NCBI GenBank assembly: GCA_028706735.1
Contig: JAQTVS010000036.1
Location: 1-13,942 of the forward strand
DNA: 13,942 nt
DNA from: Thiomonas sp.
GTDB lineage: Bacteria > Pseudomonadota > Gammaproteobacteria > Burkholderiales > Burkholderiaceae_C
Reading direction: 5' to 3'
Shown: positions 6,401-9,341 of the stretch, one piece after another
Layout of the letters: each line of letters starts with the position of its first letter
Position numbering within the stretch: the stretch's first letter is position 1
Translations under genes and position numbers: made by a program
The notes under the pieces: model-generated
What the model saw: the letters and a program-made list of their open reading frames with translations, nothing else
Databases searched by the model: none
Told to the model about the DNA's origin: nothing

Positions 6401-7457
6401 TGGAAAACACCCGGTCCTGCTCGGCCTGTGACAGCCGCGAATAGAGGGGAAGAATCTCCACGGCCTGCCGCGAGGTTTCGAGATGGTGTTTGCGCAGCGC
6501 AGCCTCGGTGTCGCGGATTTCACGCTCGCCCGGCAGAAACACCAGAATGTCGCCCGAACCCAGCCGCCACAACTCGTCCACCGCGTCGCAGATCGCGGCG
6601 GCCTGGTCGCGGTCGTCGCCCTTGTCGATGCCAAAGGGACGCCAGCGCACTTCCACCGGATACAACCGCCCGGAAACTTCGATGACCGGCGCAGGGATCA
6701 TGGGCCCCCACGCTTCGCTGCCCCCCGAGGGGGCGCCGCCCGGCTTGGGGCGGCCCGGCGCCGGGACCAACGCCCCCCACGCTTCGCTGCCCCCCGAGGG
6801 GGCGCCGCCCGGCTTGGGGCGGCCCGGCGCCGGGCGGGGCATTGCGAAATGCTGCGCAAAGCGCTCGGCGTCGATGGTTGCGGAGGTGACGATGACCTTC
6901 AGATCCGGGCGCCGGGGGAGCAACTGCTTGAGGTAGCCCAGCAGCACGTCGATATTCAGGCTGCGCTCGTGCGCCTCGTCGATGATGATCGTGTCGTAAG
7001 CGCGTAGCAGGGGATCGCTCTGCGTCTCAGCCAGAAGGATGCCGTCGGTCATCAGCTTGATGGACGCTCCTGGCTGCAGCCGGTCATTGAAGCGCACTTT
7101 GTAGCCCGCGTGGACGCCGAGTTCGCTGCCCAGTTCCTGGGCAATCCGCCGGGCGATACTGACCGCCGCCAGCCGCCGCGGCTGGGTGTGGCCGATCAGC
7201 CCCTTGCCGCCCGCACCCAGGCCGCGTCCGATGGACAGCGCGATCTTCGGCAATTGCGTGGTCTTGCCCGATCCGGTTTCGCCGCAGACGATCACCACTT
7301 GGTGCTCTCGCAGCGCCCGCGCAATGTCCTCGCGCCGCAGCGAGACGGGCAGATCCTCCGGGAATTGCACCGTGCCCACCGGCGTGGCGAGCACCGGCGC
7401 ACGCGGGGTGGCGGGGCGGCGTGTGCGGGGCGTGCGTGCAGAGGTCTGTTCGGGCAT
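3417..7457 (-). CDS. hrpA: DEAH-box ATP-dependent RNA helicase HrpA, with an in-frame repeat insertion
   Basis: HrpA-family helicases unwind RNA in the cytoplasm and in E. coli have been linked to mRNA processing and to rescue of stalled or collided ribosomes. The protein (1346 aa from ATG 7457) has Walker A GETGSGKT (59-66), DEAH (160-163), SAT (192-194) and the arginine-finger motif QRAGRCGR (410-417). After the helicase core come the winged-helix/ratchet and OB-like parts and the long HrpA-specific C-terminal region. Length is typical (E. coli about 1300 aa). Unusually, residues about 206-255, between the two RecA domains, contain a 23-residue Gly/Pro-rich tandem repeat encoded by a dispersed DNA element. 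Where I recall E. coli HrpA running directly from RHF to IIEVSGRTYPVEVRY, this protein runs from QHFA through the insert to PVIEVSGRLYPVEVRW. A TTG at 7481 would add eight residues, but ATG 7457 is more plausible. No strong ribosome site is visible. It is divergent from argA. Confidence 0.95.
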   Translation of the reverse strand: MPEQTSARTPRTRRPATPRAPVLATPVGTVQFPEDLPVSLRREDIARALREHQVVIVCGETGSGKTTQLPKIALSIGRGLGAGGKGLIGHTQPRRLAAVSIARRIAQELGSELGVHAGYKVRFNDRLQPGASIKLMTDGILLAETQSDPLLRAYDTIIIDEAHERSLNIDVLLGYLKQLLPRRPDLKVIVTSATIDAERFAQHFAMPRPAPGRPKPGGAPSGGSEAWGALVPAPGRPKPGGAPSGGSEAWGPMIPAPVIEVSGRLYPVEVRWRPFGIDKGDDRDQAAAICDAVDELWRLGSGDILVFLPGEREIRDTEAALRKHHLETSRQAVEILPLYSRLSQAEQDRVFSTGGARRVVLATNVAETSLTVPGIRYVIDAGLARVKRYSYRNKVEMLQVEPISQAAAQQRAGRCGRVANGVCIRLYEEADFNNRPRFTLPEVLRSSLAAVILRMKSLGLDAIEDFPFIDAPPGKAIADGYQLLAELGAVDERNALTPLGRELAGLPLDPRIGRMILEARSREALTEVLIIAAALSVQDPRERPAEAQQAADEAHRKFADERSEFLGWLKLWAHYNAAVEHKKSHRKLWTELRGQFLSPLRLREWHDVHSQLHTLVAEHGWRLNTAPATYEQIHCALLAGLLGNVGYKGDEEPQYLGARGLRFAIHPSSPLGRKAGRWIMAAELVETTRLYARGVARIEPQWLEQVGAHLLKTSLLDPHWEKRPAQVTAFERATLYGLVVYNQRRVDFGRFDAAQARDIFIRQALVEGEWDCRWPFFTHNRALIADIEHLEHKARRLDVLVDDELIYAFYDQHLPAEVHGGASFDRWYRDAMRAAPKLLFLQRDELMRHEAAGITTDAFPNRLRLGALELQLDYTFDPGGARDGVTVQAPLAALNQIPAQRLQWLVPGLLREKTLALLKSLPQRPRARLVPLPQTAEQFAQQLSAAERFGQGDLLDALRDLVREHTGLALQRSDFKLETLGPHLFFHIQVMDAHGRRIDTGRDLDKLRADHGQASRSAFAELAKLRTKLPQREADASAPGPGAAGSGAASTPIQAAPGNTAADALQGLTDWSFDALPELLELRRGAHTLIGFPALVDKGGSVDVEVFDTAEEAARLHRSGLRRLFALQLRDQIKHAEKSLPGFQQAAMLFMALGAADVLRTQIIDAALDRAFLTDPWPADKAAFAQRLAEGKPRFQLLAAEVARLAGQILDENAQVQKKLAGFKNQPVLLVDIRAQLQLLLPAQFIAQTPAAQIGHFPRYLQGIGRRLDKFRTDPARDAQLSGQLAPWLTRWQREAAQYRGALPQRLQDLRWLLEELRVSLFAQELRTPMPVSLKRLEKVWAQWEG
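6705..6765. repeat. GC-rich dispersed repeat, copy A (inside hrpA)
   Basis: On the plus strand the unit reads CCCCCA, a short spacer, CCCCCCGAGGGGG (a 5-base hairpin), an arm, the 15-base core TTGGGGCGGCCCGGC (6745-6759) and a second arm. The arms pair over 6 bases (CCCGGC 6739-6744 with GCCGGG 6760-6765). Copy A is identical to copy B over all 61 bases, and the two form a 69-base-period tandem with an 8-base spacer. The unit has no stop codon in any of the six frames. In hrpA it is read as PAPGRPKPGGAPSGGSEAWG. Confidence 0.93.
6774..6834. repeat. GC-rich dispersed repeat, copy B (inside hrpA)
   Basis: This is the second tandem copy, identical to copy A over 61 bases and exactly 69 bases (23 codons) further on, so it keeps the hrpA frame. 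Its core is at 6814-6828. Here the arms pair perfectly over 9 bases, CCGCCCGGC (6805-6813) with GCCGGGCGG (6829-6837), three more than in copy A because copy A's right flank has been replaced by the spacer. The absence of any drift between copies suggests a recent duplication or gene conversion. Confidence 0.93.
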
Positions 7458-8897: not shown

Positions 8898-9170
8898 ATG
8901 GCACGCACGGTTCACTGCATCAAACTCGGCCGCGAGGCCGAAGGCCTCGACTTCGCGCCCTATCCTGGAGAACTCGGCGCACGCATCTACAACAGCGTCT
9001 CCAAGGAGGCCTGGGCTGCCTGGCTCAAACACCAGACCATGCTGGTGAATGAAAACCGCCTGAACCTGGCCGACGCCCGCGCCCGCCAGTATCTGGCGCG
9101 GCAGATGGAAAAATACTTTTTCGGCGAAGGTGCCGAAATGCCGCAAGGCTATGTGCCGCCCACGACCTGA
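8898..9170 (+). CDS. yggX: Fe(2+)-trafficking / oxidative damage protection protein YggX
   Basis: YggX-family proteins are small cytoplasmic proteins that protect iron-sulfur clusters from oxidants and have been proposed to handle Fe(II); in enterobacteria the gene belongs to the SoxRS response. This copy has 90 aa, normal length. It opens with [19 protein letters not shown], including the conserved Cys7, followed by [19 protein letters not shown] and [25 protein letters not shown], and ends with a motif containing EKYFFGEG. All are hallmark segments. No SoxR-type site was recognised. It lies 65 bases after argA and is followed by a repeat element and then a terminator. The functional link to argA is unclear; the nearest iron-sulfur genes are fdx and hscA about 3 kb away. 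Confidence 0.94.
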
Positions 9171-9175
9171 GAGCG

Positions 9176-9249
9176 CCCCCAGACCTGCCGCGTTCGCGTC
9201 AGGCCCCCCGAGGGGATGAGAAAACTTGGGGCGGCCCGGCGTTTTCTCA
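9176..9249. repeat. Diverged dispersed repeat, copy C (downstream of yggX)
   Basis: This copy has the same order of parts, in the same plus-strand orientation, as the two copies in hrpA: CCCCCA (9176-9181), a first hairpin with CCTG/CAGG at its base and CGC/GCG inside (9184-9203), CCCCCCGAGGGG (9204-9215), a left arm TGAGAAAAC (9217-9225), the identical 15-base core TTGGGGCGGCCCGGC (9226-9240) and a right arm GTTTTCTCA (9241-9249). The arms are perfectly complementary over 9 bases although their sequence differs entirely from the GC-rich arms in hrpA. Confidence 0.85.
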
Positions 9250-9302
9250 GGAGTTGAACTGAGCAGCCCAAATCTAGGCTGTGCACGGATGCCACACACT
9301 CG

Positions 9303-9341
9303 CCGCACAAATACTCCATGCAGTATTTTGTGCGGTTTTTT
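9303..9341 (+). terminator. Rho-independent terminator after yggX
   Basis: The stem is CCGCACAAATACT (9303-9315) pairing with AGTATTTTGTGCGG (9322-9335), with one bulged T and a 6-base loop CCATGC, followed by six T residues (9336-9341). This would end argA-yggX transcription about 130 bases past the yggX stop. The inner part of the stem is also one of two near-identical palindromes in this gap. Confidence 0.82.
9309..9328. repeat. 20-base palindrome, copy 1 (within terminator stem)
   Basis: AAATACT-CCATGC-AGTATTT is a perfect 7-base inverted repeat with a 6-base spacer. It matches the copy at 9433-9452 at 18 of 20 positions, including the non-palindromic edge of the spacer. It may be part of the terminator only, an operator, or both. 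Confidence 0.7.

Follow-up and report, generated by a model that had tools for sequence, protein, structure and literature searches.

An untagged, REP-like hairpin repeat of Burkholderiales with a nearly invariant apex on a variable but paired stem

Introduction

A 15-base core occurs three times in a 13,942-nucleotide stretch of DNA from Thiomonas sp. (contig JAQTVS010000036.1 of assembly GCA_028706735.1; hereafter the window), twice within hrpA and once downstream of yggX. In an earlier note on this stretch, it was pointed out that two of these copies carry arms that are complementary to each other and dissimilar between the copies. This arrangement raises the question of what preserves a hairpin when the sequence of its stem is free to change. 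Two answers were offered: that structure rather than arm sequence is maintained, or that each copy acquires a new matched pair of arms. The repeat was analyzed here in the window, in the source genome and in other bacterial genomes.

Results

Repeat units in the window

Coordinates of the repeat units and neighboring features are given in Table 1. The core was present at 6745, 6814, and 9226, as the earlier note had stated, and the perfect 9-bp arms of the intergenic copy and of copy B in hrpA were likewise verified, together with the different lengths (10 versus 22 bases) of the stretch from CCCCCA to CCCCCC. The intergenic unit begins at 9171, right after the yggX stop codon, so that the start originally proposed, 9176, was a few bases late; it ends at approximately 9249–9252. 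From 9171 to 9249, this unit consists of a C-run, a variable stretch, the CCCCCCGAGGGG box, and the arm-core-arm hairpin. In other copies, the counterpart of the variable stretch is unrelated sequence, which is often self-complementary. Copy A in hrpA, not discussed previously, has the same left arm as copy B, and its right side, GCCGGGACC, pairs over 6 bases only.

Table 1. Repeat units and adjacent features in the window.
Feature	Position	Strand	Evidence
Unit A, antisense within hrpA; core at 6745-6759; 6 bases of arm pairing	6704..6765	+	sequence
Unit B in hrpA, in tandem with unit A (core-to-core distance 69 bases); core at 6814-6828; arms CCGCCCGGC/GCCGGGCGG	6772..6837	+	
yggX (Fe2+ trafficking protein) stop codon TGA, immediately 5' of the intergenic unit	9168..9170	+	
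Intergenic repeat unit, between yggX and ompP1/fadL-like gene	9171..9249	+	sequence; relatives (e.g., L097) without unit, flanks alignable
Upstream variable stretch GACCTGCCGCGTTCGCGTCAGG, 22 bases, self-folding possible	9182..9203	+	sequence
C-run/G-run box CCCCCCGAGGGG	9204..9215	+	similar box 5' of 183/228 copies
Left arm TGAGAAAAC	9217..9225	+	pairs with 9241-9249; covariation
Core TTGGGGCGGCCCGGC: TT/GGC internal loop (or U.G pairs), GGG/CCC stem, GCGG tip	9226..9240	+	sequence, fold, compensatory change at positions 3/12
Right arm GTTTTCTCA	9241..9249	+	sequence
Terminator-like hairpin and T-run, 3' of the intergenic unit	9302..9341	+	fold -17.5 kcal/mol, z -5.39

The two tandem units add approximately 45 residues to the hrpA product of the source genome, just after its TSATIDAERF motif (window 6690–6840). 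A scan of 81 hrpA sequences yielded 60 readable ones; the 21 sequences that gave no result included two (L134 and L158) with the core in a similar context. Inserts were found in five of the 60 (the window, L102, L107, L109, and L133) and the short form in 55, and all inserts found were in frame, the scan having read a continuous frame in which only in-frame inserts were detectable. The inserts of L107 and L109 did not contain the exact core.

Copy number and distribution

The ArgA product of the source genome was up to 95% identical to Thiomonas records, in agreement with a place in Burkholderiales. The 2.93-Mb Thiomonas assembly contained 77 exact copies of the core, 47 in forward and 30 in reverse orientation. 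Since the reversed pattern used as a control gave 0 matches, chance occurrence was excluded. A covariance model recognized at least 148 copies among the 150 candidates scored in this genome (E ≤ 0.01), 60 and 78 in two complete congeners, and 75 and 12 in two further genomes from outside the family, with no matches in seven of the 15 genomes searched (G085, G030, G326, G460, G502, G510, and G723), among them all four from outside the order. The exact core occurred in 22 of 40 near relatives, including the source genome (12/12 congeners, 9/11 genomes of the rest of the family, and 0/16 of other families), and in 157 of 200 genomes of the family (43 being without it) and 117 of 141 genera. Elements with paired arms were also present in other families of the order (f4, f21, f30, f39, and f44). 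A 17-base form was detected in 12 of 299 genomes of the phylum, eight from the family, two from other families of the order, and two from outside the order; the two matches from the 279 sampled genomes outside the order both had arms that were not complementary.

A search of a plasmid collection returned one match (87%), on a Burkholderia arboris replicon, and a search of a phage collection returned none. The window had no match in Rfam release 15, and for five loci searched there with a limit of E ≤ 1, the three matches returned were weak and under the gathering cutoff. No description of the repeat was encountered in the accessible portions of the non-subscription literature retrieved with sequence strings and topic searches.

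One contig of a relative (L096) ends at TGAGAG after yggX, perhaps the first bases of a unit, and several source-genome copies are situated no more than 110 bases from a contig end. Based on these observations, the repeat probably breaks assemblies.

Pairing and covariation of the arms

Among the matches listed, 211 of 322 distinct arm pairs were complementary at seven or more of eight positions, versus a mean of 9 and a maximum of 18 in 500 shuffles of the arm pairs. This set consisted of 40-mers among the matches listed, with identical repeats within a genome mostly omitted. Across 346 distinct arm pairs, Watson-Crick pairing amounted to 80% in register versus 31–37% when the arms were slid by 1 or 2 bases. 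All four pair types were frequent at pairs 2–8, while pair 1 was C-G nearly always. A covariation score of 0.659, versus 0.157 for shuffled sequences, was obtained with 47 sequences; it overstates pairing, because these were chosen to pair at five or more of nine arm bases and to differ from one another (48 candidates, of which two were dropped by hand, plus the window-type copy L007), a filter not applied to the sets of 322 and 346 pairs.

Arms flanking the core are thus usually complementary, and their covariation was strong in the custom statistics that took the place of the R-scape test suggested in the earlier note. The proposal that structure rather than arm sequence is maintained was borne out by arms that are unrelated and yet complementary, and the description of fixed loops with interchangeable stems holds for the core hairpin. 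Single linkage merged 343 of the 346 arm pairs, so that the arms did not separate into independent classes.

Within one genome, many copies fall in a few arm classes, and these classes are genome-specific. Stems included TGAGAAAAC and CAAGGAAAC in Thiomonas, CTCAGTCCC, CACCCGCCC, and CGTTCAGCC in G209, TTTTTTGTC in G177, and GATCCGGC and GTTTTGCC in G141. Mismatched hybrid arms of the type CAAGGAAGC/GTTTTCTCA were also seen (L033, L049, L052, L054, and L058); in the L049 hybrid, the left arm belongs to one class and the right arm to the other, an outcome that a deletion between two array cores could have produced.

Near-perfect arms are common, and mismatch types are not strongly biased, as a DNA process would predict (see below). 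Both observations are consistent with a neutral process, in which template switching at the replication fork would copy one arm onto the other and the resulting fold would have no function. Such palindrome perfection is an improbable explanation of the repeat, as it accounts neither for an apex that hardly varies and has a compensatory pair within it nor for the persistence of the mismatched hybrids.

The core and its upstream modules

A search of 250 genomes from the order, with positions 3 and 12 of the core each allowed to be G or C, gave 110 rows after removal of identical repeats and of the G000 and G141 rows. These comprised 87 G-C, nine C-G, nine C-C, and five G-G forms. Arms paired at six or more of eight positions accompanied 73 of the 87 G-C forms, six of the nine C-G forms, and none of the 14 mixed forms (C-C and G-G). 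The core itself is therefore paired at positions 3 and 12 and has undergone compensatory change there, and the mixed forms behave like chance matches. When hairpins with perfect 9-bp arms were surveyed with the core not required, the 15-base loops seen more than twice were the core (78) and two single-change variants of it, TTGGGACGGCCCGGC (8) and TTGGGGCGGCCCTGC (7), in a sample that was bycatch of loci fetched via the core or neighboring genes rather than random. Variant core copies numbered 54, versus seven for the reversed core.

The view of the unit as a two- or three-hairpin element was upheld only in part. The upstream C-run/G-run box accompanied most copies (183/228), but some consist of the bare core hairpin (without the box in L012 and L063), and whole units folded no better than shuffled sequences (see below).

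Other sequences adjoined the hairpin in some copies. A second GC-rich palindromic repeat, CTCACCTCCCCCACGGCGTGGGGGAGGTCGGGAGGGGG, often stands directly 5' of it in the source genome (L017, L028, L031, L033, L041, L052, and others), and an upstream module built around AAGCTGCCCTGCGGCAGCTTGGACGG...GCTTGCAAGC is joined to the same hairpin in L010, L020, L057, L205, L208, L219, and L238. Three copies (L035, L042, and L063) share GAGGGTGTGAA...AATCCG 3' of the right arm. In Variovorax (L155, L156, and L170), the hairpin occurs with yet another module at the apparent start codon of an oppositely oriented gene, where hairpin and module supply a GGAGG sequence resembling a ribosome-binding site; the core of L155 is a one-base variant.

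Folding and mismatch types

None of 200 shuffles folded as well as the 37-base arm-core-arm sequence, whichever strand was considered (z -3.27 and -3.80). For the whole intergenic unit (z -0.72 and -0.83) and for the whole of unit B in hrpA (z -0.55 and 0.06), folding was no better than that of shuffled sequences. In the minimum-energy fold of the plus strand of the intergenic unit, the C-run box pairs with the core and the arms are unused. Because the box sequence CCCCCCGAG can pair with a complementary CTTGGGG where the core begins (window 9204–9232), in place of arm pairing, two mutually exclusive folds are possible.

The 37-base hairpin was more stable on the plus strand than on the other strand (-17.6 versus -14.4 kcal/mol), owing to U.G wobbles in the core. 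This difference would suit an element selected as RNA in mRNA 3' ends, where the transcribed hairpin would control the ending of translation, stability, or processing via an RNA-binding protein and its spread would be secondary. Arm pairs with a single mismatch showed no excess of G.T over A.C (12 versus 17, in the 322-pair set, among the matches listed). Over all mismatches at pairs 1–8 of the 346 pairs, G.T slightly exceeded A.C (106 versus 95), with the surplus sitting at pairs 3 and 4 and coming mainly from one arm class, that ending in CTTGC. Since selection on plus-strand RNA should clearly favor G.T, these counts give it little support.

Position relative to genes and terminators

With genes called by a custom codon model trained on the window, which is least sure in other genera, intergenic arrays lay on the strand of the upstream gene in ratios of 29:8 in the source genome, 21:8 in other Thiomonas genomes, and 35:8 in other genera. 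Divergent placement was seen for four of 122 arrays, and 46 of the 62 source-genome arrays examined were outside genes. A coding-like frame ended within 78 bases upstream of 72 of 186 arrays (TGA 55, TAA 9, and TAG 8), with none nearby for 114. The first C-run followed the stop codon by 0–7 bases in 58 of the 186 arrays, that is, in 58 of the 72 with a stop. Within genes of the source genome, 13 of 16 arrays were antisense (3:13). A rule of antisense-only placement inside genes was dropped, as the other sets showed no bias (10:11, antisense 11/21, and 18:20, antisense 20/38).

Placement immediately 3' of stop codons, with all three types represented, and the same-strand bias are what an RNA element of mRNA 3' ends would show. 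Many copies, however, were called inside genes, in both orientations outside the source genome, and sites are empty in close relatives. Taken together with the mismatch counts, these findings make primary selection as RNA an unlikely explanation.

A simple terminator scan of the window called 9226–9239 plus CGTTTTCTCA terminator-like; the hairpin at 9302–9341 was absent from its list. A T-rich right arm or tail was present in 31 of 53 distinct copies of the source genome. Both observations agree with an intrinsic transcription terminator that became amplified in the genome. Over the whole collection, however, only 61 of 354 distinct copies, mostly from Thiomonas, had such a tail, and in G177 the right arms were A-rich in 25 of 27 cases. 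In the window and in L097, the unit lies between the stop codon and another terminator-like hairpin, 5' of the latter, and relatives have that hairpin too; a similar one is found at the empty yggX site of L097. Because relatives share the terminator-like hairpin, the unit was probably not needed for termination. Termination as a general role was rejected on the basis of the low proportion of T-rich tails, and an amplified terminator is very improbable as the origin of the repeat.

Empty sites, arrays and candidate mobilizing genes

At the yggX site, the unit is missing from the aligned position in L097, and other Thiomonas-like loci have no unit after yggX. In L012, a UvrD/PDDEXK (RecB-like) gene carries a bare hairpin as an insertion of 42 bp (14 codons), and this insertion is absent from 12 other Thiomonas genomes. 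Sites are thus occupied in one genome and empty in relatives, as is characteristic of mobile elements. At both sites examined, the window copy and L012, the empty allele did not contain the arms, so that capture of arms from the landing site was rejected there and the arms appear to have arrived with the element. The idea in the earlier note that each copy gains a new arm pair is not supported by these two clear empty alleles or by the few arm classes common to many copies, which together indicate that arms move as part of the element and become different from lineage to lineage. When unit ends were compared by eye, TGAG or GAG was seen at both ends of many copies, not all, and no clear target duplication was established.

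The source genome contained 19 arrays, sought one strand at a time, in which close copies were spaced with a period of 69–84 bases. Neighboring pairs in these arrays differed at three or more of nine left-arm bases in nine of 25 cases, which indicates that arrays grow by addition of different members and not by slippage alone. Wherever two exact copies lay within 110 bases of each other (15 pairs), they had the same orientation. No strand polarity by replication was apparent when listings of copies were inspected by eye, runs being mixed.

RAYT-type genes (PF01797) were detected in 15 of 18 genomes, with no match in three core-rich genomes, G005, G006, and G012 (the last 83% complete). PF01797 was also present in six genomes without the exact core (G013, G046, G054, G079, G085, and G194). 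None of 20 PF01797 loci, inspected with flanks of up to 1.5 kb, contained GGGGCGGCCC or a C/G box. A RAYT mobilizer was therefore rejected for now, and the search, for which RAYT genes were the candidate, yielded no mobilizing enzyme.

Discussion

The repeat is dispersed, its sites are empty in relatives, its arms were brought along at the sites examined, and its apex is nearly invariant on a free but paired stem. These properties suggest that something in the cell reads its folded shape and spread it between places. The repeat is probably a REP-like, non-autonomous mobile hairpin of Burkholderiales, of which the apex is read and the stem need only pair.

According to this mobile-hairpin model, a trans-acting protein would recognize the folded apex and its strand, most likely in single-stranded DNA, and the same protein would copy or insert the hairpin. 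A stem that only has to pair would drift by paired changes, with each lineage amplifying its own stem classes. Copies would land beside existing copies, giving rise to mixed-class arrays that, in the source genome, run the same way round, and would often survive immediately downstream of stop codons or as in-frame inserts where genes tolerate them. More tentatively, the machinery might read only the apical motif (TT/GGC internal loop, 3-bp stem, and GCGG tip) and the pairing of the stem, so that lineages re-invented their stems; it might be an enzyme other than RAYT whose insertions go next to stop codons and alongside copies of the repeat. A hairpin in 3' untranslated regions may also affect mRNA, as has been reported, in the part of the account available, for REPs located up to 15 bases from a stop codon, which lowered translation (PMC12306157).

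Hundreds of natural stem variants on one apex constitute a ready-made experiment on the needs of a hairpin-reading enzyme. With inserts in frame in conserved genes (hrpA and recB-like) and after many stop codons, the repeat may tune expression in a large bacterial group.

Integron attC sites are recognized as folded single strands by their shape, while their stem is variable. The resemblance of the Thiomonas repeat to attC would be a general one, that of a hairpin read by shape on a free stem.

Closer parallels are found among short palindromic repeats. The Bor repeats of Bordetella (26–30 bp) are described, in the accessible section of the source, as resembling the REP of Escherichia coli; compared by description only and not by sequence, they share with the Thiomonas repeat the character of untagged short stem-loop repeats near coding regions of betaproteobacteria (PMC1590033). 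Rickettsia palindromic elements, as summarized in the excerpted text of PMC3733652, are palindromic inserts inside genes that are translated in frame. In a comparison by description only, they differ in host group and from a repeat that is mostly outside genes (46/62 source-genome arrays examined). For TnpAREP/RAYT, the available portion of the source reports strand-specific recognition of a single-stranded folded hairpin with a stem irregularity, and the Thiomonas repeat also has a conserved irregularity near its apex (PMC8266576). By its appearance, the repeat would suit recognition of this type. It differs in having neither a linked RAYT gene nor the GTAG tetranucleotide.

REPs of the GTAG and CGTC superfamilies, as far as described in the accessible text of Di Nocera (2013; PMC3733652), are short, high-copy palindromes located mainly near gene 3' ends, for the most part in spacers of tandem or convergent genes, with some inside genes such as recB and RNA helicases. 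The Thiomonas repeat matches them in size, copy number, and 3'-end placement, being a short palindrome in high copy that is often intergenic near 3' ends, and in its inserts in recB-like and RNA-helicase genes. In contrast to REPs, which in the same text form mainly head-head or tail-tail pairs, it occurs in head-to-tail arrays and, in these scans, was seen in one order only. It also lacks the GTAG/CGTC tag and has a nearly invariant structured apex instead. At the hairpin foot of 228 copies, GTAG occurred twice on the left and once on the right and CGTC 0 and 5 times; on the other strand, CTAC occurred 0 and 2 times and GACG 5 and 15 times. The corresponding counts for control words were 2 and 9 (GATG) and 6 and 12 (CTGC). 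The best-known model of small-palindrome spread, a RAYT with a GTAG tag, does not fit here. Untagged REP-like families have been noted and more were expected, in the text available (PMC3733652), and the Thiomonas repeat is classed with these untagged REP-like elements, outside the tagged superfamilies.
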